Source: a virus
IMG/VR virus record: IMGVR_UViG_3300025769_000790
Span: 1 to 24,859 of that record
DNA: 24,859 bases
Direction: 5' to 3' (one strand)
The notes beneath the pieces were generated by a model, which saw only the letters and a list, made by a program, of their open reading frames with translations, was not told where the DNA came from and did no database searches. Positions 1,930 through 17,220 of this stretch are shown here, in pieces. Position 1 is the stretch's first letter, and every line of letters starts with the position of its first letter. The position numbers and the translations under genes were made by a program.

Positions 1930-2169
1930 CTATTCTGCGCCGAATTGCTCAAGAAGAGCACTTAACTCCGCAGCATATTGTGAGTCGGGTGATTGAGCAA
2001 TCTGACGCTTTGCTTCCGCCAGAATCAACAGCTCCAGAACCTGGGTGCGGGATCTTCGAGATTTCTTTGCCAGGCGCGAAAGAGCCTCCTTCGCGTTGGA
2101 ATCAATCCAGGCATTGAAATTGGCTTTGTTTTTTGCTCTGACAGGTAAACTCACGCTCACAACATACAT
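1930..2169 (-). CDS. Ribbon-helix-helix DNA-binding protein, putative repressor
   Basis: The only convincing leftward gene of the window (79 aa). An N-terminal strand (YVVSVSLPV) and later helices (SNAKEALSRLAKKSRR and SRTQVLELLILAEAKRQ) fit a CopG/Arc-type ribbon-helix-helix fold, preceded by a basic linker. It is transcribed divergently from the rightward early genes, and 45 bp separate its start from three 11-bp repeats at 2221-2253. A regulator facing an operator array is the usual form of a lysogeny switch, so I infer it represses the rightward promoter and possibly its own. No clear Shine-Dalgarno precedes the ATG and the leader is very A+T rich. An overlapping + strand frame over the same bases is less protein-like. 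Confidence 0.6.
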   Translation of the reverse strand: MYVVSVSLPVRAKNKANFNAWIDSNAKEALSRLAKKSRRSRTQVLELLILAEAKRQIAQSPDSQYAAELSALLEQFGAE

Positions 2170-4904: not shown

Positions 4905-5405
4905 ATGAAAATAATTGGACTTTGCGGAAAAAAACGCTCGGGGAAATCATCCGCCGCCGAGCACCTACAACACATTATCGGCGATCGGTGCTACCGATTT
5001 GCGTTTGCCGACCAGATCAAAGCTGAGGTCGGGAAGATATTCGGCAAATACCGAGAGGACCGCAAAGAGACTCTGCGCCCGGTATACCAGAGTGTGGGGG
5101 AGGCAGCGAAACAGCTGTTCGGCACAACGGTCTGGGTAGACAAACTCGCCGACAAACTCAGTCGCCTCGAGGATCCGGACGCAGTTGTTGTCATCGACGA
5201 TCTGCGATTTCCCATCGAGTCCGAGTGGGTTCGATCCATGGGCGGAGTCGTCTGGCGGATCCGCCGCCCGGCTACGGACTGCATTGAGGACTCGCATGTC
5301 TCGGAGACCAGCGTCGATTTAATTAGGGCAGACGAAATTGTGTTCAACGATTCAACACCATTAAATTTCTATGACCGCATCACTAAGCTATACAACTGTC
5401 ATTGA
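4905..5405 (+). CDS. Deoxynucleoside monophosphate kinase
   Basis: A 166-aa P-loop kinase resembling phage dNMP kinases (T4 gp1-like group), which phosphorylate dNMPs to dNDPs for phage DNA synthesis. Walker A is G8-KKRS-G13-K14-S15. The conserved later segments are visible: FADQIKAEV, VVVIDDLRFPIESEW (D98/D99, R101), RIRRP, the D129-S-H131 motif and a final EIVFND turn. The open frame extends upstream to 4854, but that part overlaps the hairpin and has no similarity, so the ATG at 4905 next to the first beta strand is chosen. The 3' end overlaps the DnaA-like gene by 35 nt. Confidence 0.8.
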   Translation: MKIIGLCGKKRSGKSSAAEHLQHIIGDRCYRFAFADQIKAEVGKIFGKYREDRKETLRPVYQSVGEAAKQLFGTTVWVDKLADKLSRLEDPDAVVVIDDLRFPIESEWVRSMGGVVWRIRRPATDCIEDSHVSETSVDLIRADEIVFNDSTPLNFYDRITKLYNCH

Positions 5406-5745
5406 GCGCATGGCGCAGAGCATAGGAGCTGAATTCCAGGTTGATACTTCGTTGATCATGAGCAGATCCAGAATCGAACAAGCCGCAATGGCTCGCCAGG
5501 TCTTGATGGTCATGCTTTGTCGAAAAGGAATGAGTGCTCACCAGTGTGCGCGGGAATTGAACCGCGACCACACAACTATTACTCACGCTCACAAAAGCGT
5601 TCAGAACAGGCGCGAGACAGACAGGCACTTCGACGAGGTATTCCGCCGAATCGATTCCGAGTTTCGCGAGATGCCATCAATACACCAACCCAAAGCCTGG
5701 GAGATCTCATCGATTGGAGACCTGGCTCAACCCTACTATTTTTAG
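5371..5745 (+). CDS. Stand-alone DnaA domain IV (DnaA-box-binding) protein
   Basis: A 124-aa protein that is essentially the C-terminal DNA-binding domain of DnaA. YTTVIERMAQSIGAEF corresponds to its first helix, SRSRIEQAAMARQVLMVML to the next, and RELNRDHTTITHAHKSV (R65-D-H-T-T) to the signature helix-turn-helix that reads DnaA boxes. No AAA+ domain is present. The start at 5371 is preferred over 5410 because the first domain helix begins near residue 7. It lies three genes upstream of an AAA+ loader and just before the initiator gene, so it probably helps recruit or compete with host DnaA at an origin (inference). A transcriptional role is the alternative. Confidence 0.85.
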   Translation: MTASLSYTTVIERMAQSIGAEFQVDTSLIMSRSRIEQAAMARQVLMVMLCRKGMSAHQCARELNRDHTTITHAHKSVQNRRETDRHFDEVFRRIDSEFREMPSIHQPKAWEISSIGDLAQPYYF

Positions 5746-5747
5746 CC

Positions 5748-5936
5748 ATGCGTGAACCTGAACCAATGAGGGCAGACTTCTCCGGAGACACTCACCCAAA
5801 CCATGTTGTCAACGCCGAGGAGTTCCGGAGAGCGTTTCGAAGGTTCTTTGCAAAGCGGGGCATGGAGATTGGCTGGCATGCCGAGAAGCGTGCGGCTTCC
5901 AAGCGCAGGAACCTTCCGTCCATGGAGGAGGAGTAA
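5748..5936 (+). CDS. Hypothetical protein (62 aa)
   Basis: A 62-aa basic protein beginning MREPEPMRADFSGD, with a helical segment AEEFRRAFRRFFAKRGM and a KRAASKRR stretch before an acidic end. I do not recognise it. It starts 2 nt after the DnaA-like gene and its stop overlaps the next start (TAATG); the sequence encoding its last residues supplies the GGAGGAG ribosome site of the next gene. The frame is open further upstream but only as an out-of-phase overlap of the DnaA-like gene. Confidence 0.55.
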   Translation: MREPEPMRADFSGDTHPNHVVNAEEFRRAFRRFFAKRGMEIGWHAEKRAASKRRNLPSMEEE

Positions 5937-6733
5937 TGAAATACATTAAACTCTACTTCAATGACTGGGCTATGAACACCCGTGTCCTGACCCTTGAGGA
6001 AAAGGGTGCATGGGTAGACCTGATCGCCATCCTGTCGAGCAGCGAAAAGCCCGGAGAGATCACTCTTTGCGCCCGTTCTTTGGGTAGGCTTTGGGGTGTG
6101 ACACCGAGGAAAGCGAGCACCTTTCTGGAGTCCATCAGCGGTGCCGGGTTAATCACTTTTGAGAAAAATTCGGAAAAATTCCGCATAAATTGCAGCGAAA
6201 TCGAAAAAGCAAATTCAAAATATTCTGAATTTGTTTTGTCTCGGAAATCTAGCGTAAACCGTTCTTCATCAACAAAAGCATCGAGCATAATGAAGTCATC
6301 ATGCGAGCATAATGAAGTCATAATGAAGTCATCATGCGAGCATAATGCTCCCAATATTATAGTTAATAGTAGTACTACTACTACTACTAAGAACTCATCT
6401 AGTAGTAGAGGGGCAAAAGGTAAGTCGAAAGCTGCATCACAGTCGAAGCCTCCGACCCTGGAGGAGGTTTTGTCATTCTGCGAAAAACGCAGAATTCCTT
6501 CATCCACCGGAGAGGCTTTTTTCAATTATTACGAGGGTCACAACCTGTGGCTGAACAAACACAAGGAACCCATCAAATGGTGGTTCGTCATCCAGAACGA
6601 ACCATGGAAATCCAATCATGAACACAACAGCAATCGTAACGGATCTTTTCGGCCAATCAGTCGAAACACAGGAACAGCAAACGAGACAGACGGCAGTGAA
6701 TACGCAGAAGTGGGCAGAGTGGTTCGGCATTGA
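5936..6733 (+). CDS. DUF1376-type replication initiator/replisome organiser
   Basis: A 265-aa protein with an N-terminal winged-helix region typical of the DUF1376/YdaU-like group (IKLYFNDWAMNTRVLTLEEKG, then RSLGRLWGVTP and ISGAGLI), found in phage replication proteins. The middle (about 100-160) is a Ser/Thr-rich linker containing two 11-residue repeats (IMKSSCEHN...) encoded by an 11-bp DNA repeat array. The second domain (about 170-225: LEEVLSFCEKR, FFNYYEGHNLW, WWFVIQNEPW) resembles the helicase- or loader-contacting part of such proteins, and the tail RNTGTANE..Y..VGRVV is a conserved kind of ending. It overlaps the DnaC-like gene by 116 nt. By analogy with lambda O it would bind its own gene as the origin. 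Confidence 0.75.
   Translation: MKYIKLYFNDWAMNTRVLTLEEKGAWVDLIAILSSSEKPGEITLCARSLGRLWGVTPRKASTFLESISGAGLITFEKNSEKFRINCSEIEKANSKYSEFVLSRKSSVNRSSSTKASSIMKSSCEHNEVIMKSSCEHNAPNIIVNSSTTTTTKNSSSSRGAKGKSKAASQSKPPTLEEVLSFCEKRRIPSSTGEAFFNYYEGHNLWLNKHKEPIKWWFVIQNEPWKSNHEHNSNRNGSFRPISRNTGTANETDGSEYAEVGRVVRH
6287..6352 (+). repeat. Six tandem 11-bp iterons, candidate replication origin
   Basis: Six contiguous 11-bp units start at 6287, 6298, 6309, 6320, 6331 and 6342. Units 1, 3 and 4 are ATAATGAAGTC, units 2 and 5 are ATCATGCGAGC, and unit 6 is ATAATGCTCCC. They form two 33-bp blocks and are followed by an AT-rich low-complexity tract (about 6351-6392, including repeated ACT and AGT triplets). Iterons plus AT-rich DNA inside the linker of the initiator gene are the layout of the lambda origin within gene O. 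Origin function is inferred. Confidence 0.65.
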
Positions 6734-7238
6734 GCTGGTCGATGACAACGTCGAGCGCATGGTTCGTGCAGCAGCTGAGTGGGCTATTGCCGTCAAAGCT
6801 GGAGACAAACCTCGCTGGCTATCCCTGCTGGGGAGCAGCGGAGCTGGAAAAACACACATTGCCAAACGCCTTTGGGCGTGGCTTTCAAAACGACCAGACT
6901 TCCAGGGACGGGCAAACTACCTGCCGCAGTTCGTTTATTGGCCAAAACTCATGGATGACATGCGAACTGATGCCAGCCTCTACAGCCGATTCGGCGACAT
7001 GCAACGCTGGCGATACCTCGTCCTCGACGATGTAATGGCCGAACGTCAGTCCGACTGGACGCTGGAGAAGATCAACACACTGCTCGGGTGCCGTGTAGGC
7101 AAATGGACAATCCTCACCAGCAACCTGTCCATGATGGGCATCGCCAAAACAGAGAAACGCATCGCCTCCCGGCTCATCCGCGACAAAGGCATCGTCGCCG
7201 ACATACAGACCACAGACTACAACCTGCGAAACAGATGA
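6618..7238 (+). CDS. DnaC-like AAA+ helicase loader
   Basis: A 206-aa AAA+ ATPase of the DnaC/IstB type, expected to load the replicative helicase onto the origin. Walker A is G72-SSGAG-K78-T79, Walker B is YLVLDD (D137, D138), sensor 1 is T167-S-N169, and the arginine-finger segment is RIASRLIRD (R181/R185). The N-terminal 60 residues would hold the partner-binding part. The first 116 nt overlap the initiator gene in another frame, and no later ATG would keep the N-terminal domain, so the long overlap looks real. With the initiator and DnaA-domain protein it completes a theta-type initiation set; no helicase or polymerase gene is in this window. Confidence 0.85.
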   Translation: MNTTAIVTDLFGQSVETQEQQTRQTAVNTQKWAEWFGIELVDDNVERMVRAAAEWAIAVKAGDKPRWLSLLGSSGAGKTHIAKRLWAWLSKRPDFQGRANYLPQFVYWPKLMDDMRTDASLYSRFGDMQRWRYLVLDDVMAERQSDWTLEKINTLLGCRVGKWTILTSNLSMMGIAKTEKRIASRLIRDKGIVADIQTTDYNLRNR

Positions 7239-9985: not shown

Positions 9986-10173
9986 TACGCATCGTGGTTG
10001 AGGTGTCTGAGGACGCAAATGGCGTTGCCTTTCAGAAATACGTCCAGGCATGTGGGGCGACACCTGGTGAAGTTGAGGTAGGAGAGGGGGTTGATGCGAT
10101 CATTGACGAATATTTGGACACCCTCGAAGAGACGGACGATGTCATCGATGCTCAAACATTTGCGCGGAACTAG
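9982..10173 (+). CDS. Small acidic protein (63 aa)
   Basis: A 63-aa, strongly acidic protein (EVEVGEGVDAIIDEYL, ETDDVIDAQTF) with a short beta start MIRIVVEVSED. A strong GGAGGGGAGC ribosome site and an ATGA overlap with the upstream gene support translation. No family recognised. Small acidic phage proteins can act as DNA mimics against host defence, but the sequence alone does not show this. Confidence 0.55.
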   Translation: MIRIVVEVSEDANGVAFQKYVQACGATPGEVEVGEGVDAIIDEYLDTLEETDDVIDAQTFARN

Positions 10174-10183
10174 CGCGAGACCT

Positions 10184-11230
10184 ATGGATAAACGGCTCAT
10201 CATACGTGGTCAGCTCGGGGATAACTCGAGCTACGATTATCACTCGCGCATCATCATCGATGGCATGCTGGAGCGTGGATGGGATCTCTGCGTGGTGCCA
10301 TACAATTCGGACGCATGGTCACGTGTCCTCGATGAGCGGTATGAGCGGATCATTGCGCGTCAACCAAAATGGGACGCTCCTACCCTCATCATCCATCCAC
10401 CCAAACAAACACCCGACGATCCTGACCGGACGGTGTATTCGACCATGTGGGAGACCACTCGGATCCCCCAGGCGTGGATCCGAAACCTGAACAGGTGCCG
10501 TGCCGTGATTGTTCCATCAAACCCGAACATTATGACGTTCTCGGCTCAGGGAGTAACGTCTCCCATGCATTGTGTGCCGTTCGGGGTGGATACATCAGTG
10601 TTCCAATCCAGGTCATTTGTCAGGCGAAGCACCGTTGTGTTTGGGACATCGGGGATATCCCGTCATGGTTGGCCGCGCAAAGGGTTTGACGAGGTCGTCG
10701 ATGCATTCCTTCTGGCGTTCCCGGAAGGCAACGAAGACGTGGAACTTCGCATTAAGTGCTACCCGAGGGATCCGATGCCGTCATGGACGGACCAGCGCAT
10801 CGTGCGCGATGAGGGGGAGTGGACAAAAACGGATTTGGCGGCGTGGTATCACTCCATCGACTGCTACGTGTCCATGAGCAAAGGTGAAGGTTTTGGATTG
10901 ATGCCGCTCGAGGCTATGGCATGCGGACGACCATGTGTGATCCCGGCCTGGTTTGGACCGGAAGCTTATGCGAAGGAATACAATTCGTTCCTGGTGGATT
11001 ACAAGCTTGTCCCGGCGACGAATTATTACGAGGGACAGGGACTGTGGTGTGATCCATCGGTGGAGAGTGCTGCGACGATTATGCGCCAGATAGTAAAGCG
11101 TCCATTGATGATTAACGCAAAGGCGCGTCAAGCCCGGATCGATGCGTCACGGTTTACCTACGCACGCATGGTTGATGGTTACATTGATGTCATCAATAAA
11201 TATTTTGGGAACAAACCGTATGGATATTGA
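10184..11230 (+). CDS. GT-B glycosyltransferase, GT4-like
   Basis: A 348-aa glycosyltransferase. The C-terminal donor-binding half has the retaining GT-B EX7E motif E235-GFGLMPL-E243 followed by AMACGRPCVIP, preceded by the KGFDEVVDAF helix; the N-terminal half has Rossmann-like strands (RAVIVPSN, VPFGVDTSVF). Donor and acceptor are unknown. The ATG at 10184 is chosen because upstream codons overlap the preceding gene and lack similarity. It opens a three-gene sugar cassette placed between the terminase genes. Likely roles are modification of virion proteins, host surface glycans or phage DNA; the sequence does not decide between them. Confidence 0.85.
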   Translation: MDKRLIIRGQLGDNSSYDYHSRIIIDGMLERGWDLCVVPYNSDAWSRVLDERYERIIARQPKWDAPTLIIHPPKQTPDDPDRTVYSTMWETTRIPQAWIRNLNRCRAVIVPSNPNIMTFSAQGVTSPMHCVPFGVDTSVFQSRSFVRRSTVVFGTSGISRHGWPRKGFDEVVDAFLLAFPEGNEDVELRIKCYPRDPMPSWTDQRIVRDEGEWTKTDLAAWYHSIDCYVSMSKGEGFGLMPLEAMACGRPCVIPAWFGPEAYAKEYNSFLVDYKLVPATNYYEGQGLWCDPSVESAATIMRQIVKRPLMINAKARQARIDASRFTYARMVDGYIDVINKYFGNKPYGY

Positions 11231-11268
11231 TGAATTAGTCACGGGAGTCTGCTACTGGAGGTCACACA

Positions 11269-11871
11269 ATGATTTTTAGACCAGGCACATGGGACCAGGC
11301 AATCTTCGACTGCGTCTACACGGACAACGAATACCGGGTTAATAATTTTCTCGGAAAAACCATCGTTGATGTGGGGGCACATATCGGTTCGTTCTCGCTG
11401 CTCGCTGCCCATAGGGGTGCATCCGTTGTCTACGCATACGAACCCAACAAACACAATTTTGAGATCCTGACGCAAAATGCTCTGGGAACTGTGGTTCGCC
11501 CGTGGAATAAAGGCGTTCATGCGGCGAGCGGTCTACACCTTCAAAGTATGCAGTGCAGCATGCCTGAGAACACAGGGGGGTGCCCGACAGTTCTGGATAG
11601 TGATGGGGACATTGAAACGGTTTGCATGAACGACATCATCGATCAGTTGGGGCACATCGACATCCTGAAGCTTGATTGTGAGGGTGCGGAATACCCGGCA
11701 TTACTGCACTGCACCAAACTGGATCGATTATCAGCTATCGTTGGCGAATACCACGGTCACGTAGAGCATACAATTGATGAGCTGAAGCATTACCTGAATA
11801 GTCACGGTTTCAGCGTGGGGCTGGAACCTACGGAAGGTGGACTCGGGCATTTCTTTGCTATTCGATTATGA
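11269..11871 (+). CDS. FkbM-family methyltransferase
   Basis: A 200-aa SAM-dependent methyltransferase of the FkbM type. Motif I is TIVDVGAHIGSFSLLAA (D34, G36, G40), the acidic ribose-binding residue is E58 in YAYEPN, and the family signature DILKLDCEGAEY spans 131-142. FkbM enzymes O-methylate small molecules and sugars, fitting a position between two glycosyltransferase genes. A GGAGGT ribosome site precedes the ATG by 7 nt, and the stop overlaps the next gene by ATGA. Probably methylates the sugar added by the cassette, capping it (inference). Confidence 0.85.
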   Translation: MIFRPGTWDQAIFDCVYTDNEYRVNNFLGKTIVDVGAHIGSFSLLAAHRGASVVYAYEPNKHNFEILTQNALGTVVRPWNKGVHAASGLHLQSMQCSMPENTGGCPTVLDSDGDIETVCMNDIIDQLGHIDILKLDCEGAEYPALLHCTKLDRLSAIVGEYHGHVEHTIDELKHYLNSHGFSVGLEPTEGGLGHFFAIRL

Positions 11872-12785
11872 TTATTACGGACCCCATACACGAATACAAC
11901 CCAGAGATCACCATCGATTGGCTTCGAGAGCACTGCCCGGTCGATCATCGATTTGATCGCTTAATGTCGATCGATCGATCTATCATACGATGTCGGGACG
12001 CATCGGCAACAATAAGTGCGTCACTGTTTAACCGGGACACGAATGATCCGACTGGGATGACCAGGACATCCGAACAAAATTTTCGAAAACGATATTTTGC
12101 GTCACTGATGAACAACATCCAGTGGCTAGAAGCAACCGACATGGGTTGTGATTTGTTCGTGGAACCCAGCATCGCAGATGAGGTGATGAGGCATGTCACC
12201 TCTGCGAAAGTGAACCTTCACATTATGGAGGAAAATTCCTTAGCCGCGACAGGAATGTATTGGAGATTTCTCGCGTTCGACATGGATGAGGAATGGAGAC
12301 CTGATCAGGTGGTTCTGAGTGATGTTGACATGGAGTGGGAGCATCACGTCCCCTTCCTTCTCGAGCACTGCCCGGTTGCTCCCGTCTTTTACGGCAGGTC
12401 TGAAGATCCGTTTTATGTGACGGATGATTGCTCGAAATACACCCCGATCAGCTGCGGGTATACGGCATTCGAGAAGTCTGCCCTCGATTGGAAGTTTTCT
12501 GAAATAGTCCCCAGGTTTTTTTATTATCAGTGCTACAAGCAGTTCTATGAGCCCCGCAACAAATGGAACGGACCGTACCCGCTAATGCCACACGGTTTTG
12601 GAAACACATGGAACCTGTACGGCAGCGACGAACGCTTCTTTGCTAAAGTGGTGTATTATTACCTGAAACGTAAGGGATGCTTAAACATGTTGGTTCAAAG
12701 GGAATGTTTTGACTCGCCCCACGCACCGGAAAAAGCGGACATGGAATTTACCGAGAAATTCGGAGGAAAAATCATCTGTGTCTAA
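11868..12785 (+). CDS. GT-A-like glycosyltransferase (DxD motif)
   Basis: A 305-aa protein without an obvious close family but with a GT-A-like centre: MYWRFLAFDMDEEWRPDQVV followed by L-S-D152-V-D154-M, a DxD metal/nucleotide-sugar motif at the end of a beta strand, as in transferases with a nucleotide-diphospho-sugar fold. The region 195-260 is rich in aromatic residues (PRFFYYQCYKQFYEP) and may bind the acceptor. It is coupled to the methyltransferase (ATGA) and to the large terminase gene (TAATG), so it is cotranscribed with packaging genes and likely expressed late. Enzyme class is inferred from the motif and context. Confidence 0.6.
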   Translation: MIITDPIHEYNPEITIDWLREHCPVDHRFDRLMSIDRSIIRCRDASATISASLFNRDTNDPTGMTRTSEQNFRKRYFASLMNNIQWLEATDMGCDLFVEPSIADEVMRHVTSAKVNLHIMEENSLAATGMYWRFLAFDMDEEWRPDQVVLSDVDMEWEHHVPFLLEHCPVAPVFYGRSEDPFYVTDDCSKYTPISCGYTAFEKSALDWKFSEIVPRFFYYQCYKQFYEPRNKWNGPYPLMPHGFGNTWNLYGSDERFFAKVVYYYLKRKGCLNMLVQRECFDSPHAPEKADMEFTEKFGGKIICV

Positions 12786-12847
12786 TGCCAATCCACGCAA
12801 AACCAACCAGGGTTACTGGTCCGCAGAAAAGCTCGATCGATCGATCT
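11967..12847. repeat. 15-bp direct repeat TCGATCGATCGATCT, two copies
   Basis: Identical 15-mers lie at 11967-11981 and 12833-12847, 866 bp apart, one near the start of the GT-A-like gene and one near the start of the large terminase gene. In both the same reading frame phase encodes S-I-D-R-S. Each contains overlapping GATC and CGATCG palindromes. They could be remnants of recombination that inserted the sugar gene, or coincidence of codon choice. Confidence 0.45.
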
Positions 12848-14212
12848 CTCGTCCACCTCGACAGGTTCGCCTCCGATGTGTTCGGTCTCAAACTCTATAA
12901 ATGGCAGAAGCAGGTTTTGGGTGATCTGGACGAAGCTGGATCCAGAGTTGCCCTTAAGGCAGCGAACGGATCAGGGAAAACTGCCATGTGTGCGGCACCT
13001 GCGGCTTTGTGGCATGCGCTCATGTTCCCAGATTCTGTGTGCGTAACAACATCCGGTGTTTATCGTCAGGTCAAAGAGCAGATGTGGCCAACGATCAGAT
13101 CCCTCTCCAACTCGGTCAAGGATTTTGGCATCGAGATCAATCAGACGGATCTTCGAATTCCAGAACTGAACTCTCGCATCGTTGGTTTCTCGACCGATGA
13201 TCCAGGACGGTTTGAAGGTTGGCATGCAGAGAACCTTCTCATCATCGTGGACGAAGCTAAGTCCGTAAAAGACGGCATATTTGAAGCGATTGAGAGGTGC
13301 CAGCCGAATCGCATGCTCGTTATGTCGTCACCCGGCGGAAACTCGGGAGAATTCTTTCGGATTTTCACGAAGCACCATGACATGTATCGACTCCACACGG
13401 TCACGTCATTTGACTGCCCTCACATTCCCAAAGTGTGGGTGGATCAGCAAATCAAAAAATGGGGAGAGGATCATCCGCTTGTGCGCTCCATGATCTTTGG
13501 GGAGTTCATGCAAACTTCAGACGAGTCATTACTCGTCAACTACGACTCATACCAGGCGTGTTTACGCAACCCACCGAAATATGAGAACGGAGGGATAGTC
13601 GCCGGGGTTGACTTCGCCGGGGGCAACGACGAGAACGTGATTGCGATCAGGGAAGGAAACAAAATCAAAAAAATTGTCGCGTGGACAGACCGCGACACGA
13701 TGGCATCTGTGGGGAGATTTGTGGTAGAGTTCACGAAGGCAGGTTTGAAACCGGAGGATGTGTTCTGTGACGAGGGGGGTCTGGGGCGCCCGATGGCAGA
13801 CGCACTGCGAGATGCGGGTTGGCCCATCAACCGTATTAATTTTGGAGCTCGCCCCCGGGATCCCGAAAAATTCACGAACCTGGCGGCGGAGATGTGGTAT
13901 GAGACTGCTCGCCTGATCGAGAAGAACGAGATCATCCTCCCGACCGACGACGAGGTTTTGATGGCACAACTCACCAGCAGACGTTGTCGGGCGAACAAAG
14001 CTGGCAAATTGGAGTTGGAGACGAAGGGTGAGATGAAGGCTCGAGGTCTGTCATCACCCGACCGGGCCGATGCTGTTTGTATGTCTGTCGCGCTCGGTCA
14101 TGAGCATGACTACATGACTCAGTTCTCTAAGCCAACCATCGAGGAGATTTTTGCCGGGATGGAACTCGACGTTGAAGCTCCGGACTCTCGCAGGGGTTTT
14201 GATTGCGGCTAA
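12785..14212 (+). CDS. terL: Terminase large subunit
   Basis: A 475-aa packaging motor with ATPase and nuclease domains. ATPase: adenine-binding YKWQKQVL, Walker A AANGSGKT (K65, T66), Walker B LLIIVDEAK (D156, E157) and the coupling SSPGG at 181-185. Nuclease (RNase H-like): D276 in VAGVDFAGG, D329 in DVFCDEGG and D426/D429 in SSPDRADAV. Length is typical. It pumps DNA into the prohead and cuts concatemers. The start overlaps the GT-A-like gene stop (TAATG), and the portal follows after 51 bp. No disruption is seen. Confidence 0.95.
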   Translation: MPIHAKPTRVTGPQKSSIDRSLVHLDRFASDVFGLKLYKWQKQVLGDLDEAGSRVALKAANGSGKTAMCAAPAALWHALMFPDSVCVTTSGVYRQVKEQMWPTIRSLSNSVKDFGIEINQTDLRIPELNSRIVGFSTDDPGRFEGWHAENLLIIVDEAKSVKDGIFEAIERCQPNRMLVMSSPGGNSGEFFRIFTKHHDMYRLHTVTSFDCPHIPKVWVDQQIKKWGEDHPLVRSMIFGEFMQTSDESLLVNYDSYQACLRNPPKYENGGIVAGVDFAGGNDENVIAIREGNKIKKIVAWTDRDTMASVGRFVVEFTKAGLKPEDVFCDEGGLGRPMADALRDAGWPINRINFGARPRDPEKFTNLAAEMWYETARLIEKNEIILPTDDEVLMAQLTSRRCRANKAGKLELETKGEMKARGLSSPDRADAVCMSVALGHEHDYMTQFSKPTIEEIFAGMELDVEAPDSRRGFDCG

Positions 14213-16177: not shown

Positions 16178-16355
16178 AAGGGAGATTTTTGTGTGGATCG
16201 TTCGTCAAACTGTGACAACGGTCGAGCGAGGGGCAGATAATGCCTCCTACAATATCGGATACTCAGCTGGTTTCCGGGACGGCATAGCTGCCCTGGACAC
16301 GTTGGTCGCGAATGGACTGCTGGCAGAGGCCGATGGCGAAAACGAATATGACTGA
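16041..16355 (+). CDS. Small head-region protein (104 aa)
   Basis: A 104-aa protein whose first 45 residues are encoded out of frame within the end of the portal gene. A strong AGGAG site (16028-16034) sits at normal spacing before the ATG at 16041; internal ATGs at 16080 and 16086 are alternatives. The core EAELLRQFLASPLGQRIKREI is a helical motif seen in small phage proteins near the portal, followed by NIGYSAGFRDGIAALDTL. Not assigned to a family; it may be a scaffold or head-assembly accessory. The overlap makes it easy to miss. Confidence 0.6.
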   Translation: MQLIRLVRSVCRLMRMVPGVQSPGWTRQEAELLRQFLASPLGQRIKREIFVWIVRQTVTTVERGADNASYNIGYSAGFRDGIAALDTLVANGLLAEADGENEYD

Positions 16356-17220
16356 AACGATGGAGCGGGACGAAATCATGCGTCTCATTTCGGGCGAAAA
16401 CGAAGCAGCTGCGCCCGCTGCTGAACCTATCAATGAGTCACCATCAGTGGATGAGGCACCCACTGTAAACGAAGAGTCTCAAGCAGGGGAACCGTCTCCG
16501 GAAATTAAAACCGAAGAGGATGATAGGTCTGACAAAACCGAGTCGAGATACGAGAAGCTCAGGAAAGCCGAAGCTCGCCAGAACAAAACATGGCAGAAGC
16601 TTCAGGAAGAAAAGGAGCAGATCAGGAAGCTAAAGGATGACCTGGAGGCTTCCCGGAAACAACTCGAAGAGGATCGCTCGAGGATCGCCGAGGAAATCGT
16701 AAACAACGGTGACGAAGCGTCACCCGATGTTTATGAGGCGGTCGCTGAACGATTCCGCGACTCAGGTGAACCTGAGTTGGCCGAAGAGGCGGCTCGCATG
16801 GCAGAGGAAGCTCGCCGAAAGCGAGCAAACGCCAGTCAGACCGTGGAAATCAATCGGTTTAAAAAGGAGTGGGCAGACTCTGTGAGTGAGTTGGTGAAGG
16901 CAAAACCTGAGCTTAACGATCAGGAGAGTGATCTCTACAAAGCGACTGAGTACCTGCTGAAAAACAAGCCAGCCTTAACAACTTATTCGAGCGGATTCCG
17001 CGATGCGGTCGAGGTAGCCGAATACTACGTCAACTCGAAGCGAGCCGAGTCCGTTGCAGATGAAAACAAACGGCTTCGAGCCGAGCTCGAAAGCTACAAA
17101 CGCAAACTCAATTTAGGAACCAGCGATGTCCCGCGAAGGTCAGGTCCGAAGGGGTTCGACGACATGAGTCGAGACGAACAACGTGAGGCGATTCTTCGCA
17201 TGACTCGCGCAAATAGATAG
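16348..17220 (+). CDS. Scaffolding protein
   Basis: A 290-aa protein of scaffold type, immediately upstream of the major capsid gene. It has an acidic, Pro/Glu-rich N-terminus, a long charged coiled coil at about residues 60-125 (RYEKLRKAEARQNKTW and EEKEQIRKLKDDLEAS), a helical middle, another coiled segment near ENKRLRAELESYKRKL, and a basic C-terminus, which is where scaffolds usually bind capsid. The start at 16348 overlaps the preceding stop by 8 nt; ATGs at 16333 and 16360 are possible. Assignment rests on composition and gene order, as scaffolds diverge fast. Confidence 0.75.
   Translation: MTETMERDEIMRLISGENEAAAPAAEPINESPSVDEAPTVNEESQAGEPSPEIKTEEDDRSDKTESRYEKLRKAEARQNKTWQKLQEEKEQIRKLKDDLEASRKQLEEDRSRIAEEIVNNGDEASPDVYEAVAERFRDSGEPELAEEAARMAEEARRKRANASQTVEINRFKKEWADSVSELVKAKPELNDQESDLYKATEYLLKNKPALTTYSSGFRDAVEVAEYYVNSKRAESVADENKRLRAELESYKRKLNLGTSDVPRRSGPKGFDDMSRDEQREAILRMTRANR

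Follow-up and report, generated by a model that had tools for sequence, protein, structure and literature searches.

A probable replication origin within the linker-coding part of a phage initiator gene

Can DNA that encodes the linker of a phage replication initiator also be the origin on which that initiator acts? The question is raised by an initiator-like gene of 265 aa (5936-6733, plus strand) in one IMG/VR virus record of 24.9 kb; the whole stretch analyzed, 24,859 nucleotides, is referred to here as the window. The first-pass annotation had read a lambda-like origin into this gene, and the sequence comparisons presented below support this reading through recurrence of the arrangement in relatives, constraint on synonymous sites and transmission together with the N-terminal domain. 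It is very probable that the region from 6287 to about 6408, inside the linker-coding part of the gene, is the phage replication origin, and the best reading of these comparisons is a theta-type origin that would be bound by the winged-helix domain of the initiator.

The initiator-like gene and the repeats in its linker

An AlphaFold2 model of the initiator, built from an 11-sequence alignment, comprises an N-terminal winged-helix domain (about residues 5-90, assigned with Foldseek) in which residues 8-85 form a confident helix-helix-strand-helix-helix-strand-strand fold, a long helix extending to about residue 110, a disordered linker (residues 111-168, pLDDT < 50), and a C-terminal helical domain (residues 175-221). 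Foldseek searches with this model returned generic winged-helix regulators, all of them weak matches (best E = 3e-3) and none below E = 1e-3. The protein had been labelled DUF1376-type; it does match this profile (PF07120), however the score of 18.6 bits lies below the Pfam gathering cut-off of 30.1 bits, as does that of the relative L004 (28.8 bits), with other relatives scoring lower or not at all, and membership in this family is best regarded as borderline. Relatives of the initiator match PHROG families of primosomal proteins. No Pfam or PHROG match to lambda O or phage replication protein O was obtained for the window protein at E ≤ 0.1, nor to the lambda O family for its relatives at the thresholds used, and the profiles tested place the initiator outside the O family.

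The linker-coding DNA contains six tandem 11-bp units (6287-6352, plus strand), proposed to be initiator-binding iterons, preceded by a partial leading unit, AAGCATCGAGC, at 6276-6286 on the same strand. The units begin at 6287, 6298, 6309, 6320, 6331 and 6342, exactly as first annotated; those at 6287, 6309 and 6320 read ATAATGAAGTC and those at 6298 and 6331 read ATCATGCGAGC, while the sixth (ATAATGCTCCC) matches in its first half only. With the register moved by 3 bp, the array resolves into five perfect 4-2-4 (10-bp) dyads of the form ATGNNNNCAT at 6290, 6301, 6312, 6323 and 6334, in the order ATGAAGTCAT, ATGCGAGCAT, ATGAAGTCAT, ATGAAGTCAT, ATGCGAGCAT, spanning 6290-6343 with one base between neighbors and an exact 11-bp spacing. 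This is the only run of at least three such dyads at 11-bp spacing in the window, and the longest run found in 200 Markov sequences was three. The lag-11 self-match was attained in about 2 of 2000 shuffles (about 0.1%) of codons within the gene with the protein fixed, and in 1 of 5000 draws from the codon usage of the window; the 11-bp period is explained by neither codon use nor chance. The last 33 bp of the array are a near copy of the preceding 33 bp, and the 33-bp module encodes two 11-residue repeats (IMKSSCEHNEV/IMKSSCEHNAP), a modularity that had been remarked upon before and is real in the sequence. A search of the window for a second copy of the array found none. The earlier argument that 11-bp units place all sites on the same face of the helix holds for the exact spacing in the window but is not general, as relatives use 12 bp.

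Directly after the units lies the proposed unwinding element, an AT-rich tract (about 6350-6408, plus strand; 29% GC) that bears out the earlier description of an AT-rich, triplet-repeat sequence and includes (CTA)5 at 6375-6389. The opposite strand of this repeat presents 3′-GAT-5′ repeats leading away from the iterons, resembling DnaA-trios. The (CTA)5 region is the sole cluster of six CTA per 48 nt when both strands of the window are counted; clusters of at least six per 48 nt are confined to the tract, on one strand, in the window, the G003 and G004 contigs and loci L030 and L034, and the L002 and L005 contigs hold no cluster reaching six. In the model, array and tract are both coded within the disordered residues 111-168, between the folded domains, and since this peptide lacks structure and accommodates changes in its sequence, the DNA would be free to act as an origin while remaining in frame.

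The gene directly downstream of the initiator (6618-7238, plus strand) encodes a DnaC-like AAA+ helicase loader (PHROG 50, E = 2.5e-20), and a gene upstream (5371-5745, plus strand) encodes a stand-alone DnaA domain IV protein, the DnaA-box-binding HTH (PF08299, E = 2.2e-11). Such PF08299 genes immediately precede the initiator gene wherever upstream DNA of relatives was examined (L002 3430-3807, L023 4428-4826, L035 4008-4310 and L036 1428-1730, with two copies in L032 at 104-394 and 571-870), the match in L030 being weak. Stand-alone proteins of this type could occupy DnaA boxes and either hinder host DnaA or bring it in. The window holds no more DnaA boxes (up to two mismatches) than chance would give, and none lies 0-16 bp from the trio-like repeats, the nearest being at 6266 and 6500. 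GC skew, suggested earlier as a check on the origin, was of no help in locating it: the window shows a broad flat valley at 3.3-8 kb around the array that does not single out the site, and other contigs contradict each other.

Several other features were recorded in the window. Three tandem 11-bp TAGGCGCATA units at 2220-2251 lie over a promoter-like TTGACC-17-CATATT and adjoin a divergent ribbon-helix-helix gene (1930-2169, minus strand; PF01402); an array of this type is also present in L002 (281-311), and the one in the window is probably a repressor operator array. A short 11-bp tandem repeat at 16669-16694, inside an ORF at 16312-17220, is probably coding-driven. Between the small and large terminase genes, 10148-11871 encodes a glycosyltransferase, strongly conserved among relatives, and an FkbM-type methyltransferase, which is variable. 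The closest named relatives of the terminase (12785-14212) are those of Akkermansia phages, at 33-36% identity, a similarity that hints at a Verrucomicrobiota host.

Recurrence and exchange among related phages

Relatives were found in IMG/VR by scans with the initiator protein, its C-terminal part and the loader alignment. The comparison set consists of the window gene and ten distinct related initiator genes, which form five further classes; L006, L018, L019, L037 and L039, with different or partly related initiators, were left out. No initiator relative was found among 50,697 records of named phages or in the genomes of 84,980 bacterial and archaeal species. As the origin proposal anticipated, repeats and an AT/CTA tract recur in homologues with unlike linkers, the repeat sequence differing along with the linker. 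L014 and L017 carry 8-9 units, mostly of 11 bp, of the type CAACGAATCGT; the units are 12 bp long in L030 (GCTAAACCACGT), in L032, L033 and L034 (GGTACCCTAAAG), and in L035 and L036 (CCTACCCTAAAG/CGAACCC-type); L002 and L004 have irregular TCAGAAAAACC-type repeats and a CGATCAG...CTGATCG dyad. Periodicity exceeds the codon-preserving null in all classes, weakly so in L036 (P = 0.04), with the exception of L002/L004 (type B), where the two to three irregular repeats are not significantly periodic on their own.

A CTA-bearing, low-GC tract is located on the same side of the repeats in all compared genes, and CTA clustering is above the codon-preserving null at P ≤ 0.02 in 9 of the 11, the two falling outside this limit being L004 (P = 0.18) and L036 (P = 0.05). 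The 48-nt segment richest in CTA sits within the iterons in L035 and L036, and the tract of these two has CTA at 6-bp steps, a spacing also seen in L032.

Independent recurrence was sought in 2.9 million viral contigs, in which three stretches (L055, L056 and L057) carried four ATGNNNNCAT dyads spaced by 11 bp. The near-identical L056 and L057 carry the dyad array again in the linker region of a phage initiator-like gene, one different from that of the window; the L055 stretch is within no ORF of at least 60 residues. The array in L057 (5849-5891) and L056 (4344-4386) consists of 11-bp ATCATGNNNNN dyads and is followed by a purine-rich GAAGAG tract, and the full-length frame of the gene seemingly has no ordinary start codon in the assembly.

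In 50-bp DNA bins, the flanks of the window phage and L002 are mostly at least 90% identical on both sides, and the DNA from about 5950 to 6449, encoding the N-terminal domain, linker and tract, is weakly related, with no similarity between the linker DNAs. The exchanged segment has its right edge at about 6449, where homology to near-identical phages restarts and the part coding for the C-terminal domain (6449-6733, plus strand) begins. At the protein level, the N-terminal 100 residues are 45% identical and the C-terminal part 96%. L035 and L036 present the converse, with 96% N-terminal and 73% C-terminal identity and near-identical linker DNA. Across classes, linker-DNA similarity tracks N-terminal identity (71% for L014-L030, 73% for L032-L035) and not C-terminal identity. 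This co-inheritance is the pattern expected of an N-terminal domain that reads the linker repeats, and related phages appear to exchange the N-terminal domain and linker site as one cassette.

Constraint on the DNA and competing explanations

Among close relatives, synonymous differences are strongly reduced in the linker (3/156 codons, pooled, compared with 131/733 over the remaining codons; p = 5.5e-9, a value somewhat dependent on linker limits drawn by eye around repeats and tract). The reduction is seen in L002/L004 (0/40 in the linker, 23/184 in the rest), L014/L017 (1/48, 33/182), L032/L033 (1/34, 35/189) and L035/L036 (1/34, 40/178); the pool takes one of the three possible pairs within L032-L034, and for the L032/L034 pair alone the reduction is not significant (p = 0.39). 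Amino-acid replacements are not reduced in the same linkers. An antisense ORF at 5953-6525 was considered as the source of the constraint and rejected because the antisense stop-free stretch is not consistent across classes. Taken together, the synonymous constraint, the co-inheritance of N-terminal domain and linker, and a dense CTA cluster that, where present, is unique in its contig and lies beside the repeats on one strand point to a function at the DNA level.

Such a function need not be replication. Dyads at helical spacing fit repressors, and the data are also compatible with a protein-binding array for autoregulation, in which case the array would be an operator for the initiator or a phage repressor, controlling transcription and having no origin function; the window phage does carry the other 11-bp tandem array that resembles a ribbon-helix-helix repressor operator. 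However, the linker array lies about 350 bp into the gene, is followed by the CTA/AT tract, sits directly upstream of the region coding for the C-terminal domain and loader, and is exchanged along with the initiator's own N-terminal domain, and we consider an operator improbable. Chances are slimmer still that what is conserved is a structure formed by the early transcript, with a role of the RNA in translation control or in priming: the strand does fold better than shuffled sequences (z = -3.3 in the window, -2.4 in L014), but self-folding is inherent to tandem dyads, and the period, copy number and sequence vary by class while the direct-repeat-plus-AT layout is constant. Least credible is functionless low-complexity DNA left by replication slippage or duplication, which would suit both the 33-bp near copy and disordered linkers of variable length but is strongly disfavored by linker synonymous sites far more conserved than the rest of the gene, by repeats above codon-preserving nulls, and by the threonine codons of L032, L034, L035 and L036, which are ACC throughout the iterons and ACT throughout the tract.

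For the preferred reading, a replication origin, the N-terminal winged-helix domain would bind the tandem 11-bp dyad iterons and the resulting complex would melt the adjoining AT/CTA tract. Gene order and protein families further suggest that the DnaC-like loader, whose gene comes next, is recruited by the C-terminal domain and in turn places the host replicative helicase. A family of uncharacterized environmental phages thereby gains a testable candidate origin and, in six classes of repeats that each go with their own type of N-terminal domain on a common scaffold, a natural set of specificity cassettes suited to the study of how winged-helix initiators read iterons. More generally, phage origins may be predictable from sequence by short repeats and synonymous constraint in an initiator linker.

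Comparison with known replication origins

The E. coli Rac prophage, which has an active origin, oriJ (PMC3945230), offers a similar gene order in ydaU/ydaV, where a gene for a DUF1376 protein is followed by that for a putative ATP-binding protein. Its ydaU has no tandem array comparable to that of the window and contains scattered GTTCAAAC-like words only; in the copy examined (L042, 11500-11600), scattered GTTCAAACA and GTTTGAAC words are followed by AT-rich DNA, and oriJ might be located at these words.

The bacterial basal unwinding system consists of DnaA box, spacer and DnaA-trios, the last being repeated 3′-GAT-5′ motifs on a 5′ tail beside the boxes (PMC8287927). The top-strand CTA of the window gives bottom-strand 3′-GAT-5′, and the tract lies 5′ of the iterons on the bottom strand, with the same polarity; however, phage iterons stand in the place of a DnaA box, none being within 16 bp, and CTA spacing is 6 bp in L032, L035 and L036. 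Because of these two differences the resemblance may reflect merely an easily melted sequence, yet the idea of a trio is kept alive by the DnaA domain IV gene that immediately precedes the initiator gene in the examined relatives. Is the strand-opening code of bacteria, then, reused by phages that dispense with DnaA boxes? Tentatively, and with the odds against it, the (CTA)n tract could be a DnaA-trio-like melting element engaged not by box-bound DnaA but by an iteron-nucleated AAA+ assembly, formed by the phage DnaC-like loader or by host DnaA via the DnaA domain IV protein, such that phages would have borrowed a chromosomal origin-opening module and put a swappable initiator/iteron cassette of their own in place of the part that recognizes double-stranded DNA.

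Bacillus phage SPP1 carries oriL in gene 38 (PMC6316719), and its gp38/gp39/gp40 system is similar in having an origin within an initiator gene, a likeness of layout; it differs in having a second origin, oriR, elsewhere, whereas the window has no second copy of the array. Also close is the architecture of the lambda ori and its Stx-phage variants with six iterons, where iterons in the middle of the initiator gene, an AT-rich tract alongside and a helicase-loader gene next to it are likewise found, and where the iteron number differs among relatives and changes protein length (PMC7466680). The window and its relatives show the elements of a lambda-type architecture, namely linker repeats with an AT tract beside them and an N-terminal domain co-inherited with the iterons independently of the C-terminal domain. 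They differ from lambda in an initiator without a match, at the thresholds used, to any lambda O family of Pfam or PHROGs, in units of 11-12 bp and a CTA-repeat tract, and in a DnaC-like AAA+ loader in place of lambda P. An origin inside the initiator gene is a known type, as in lambda O and SPP1 gene 38, and the locus described here would add a new variant with another initiator family.
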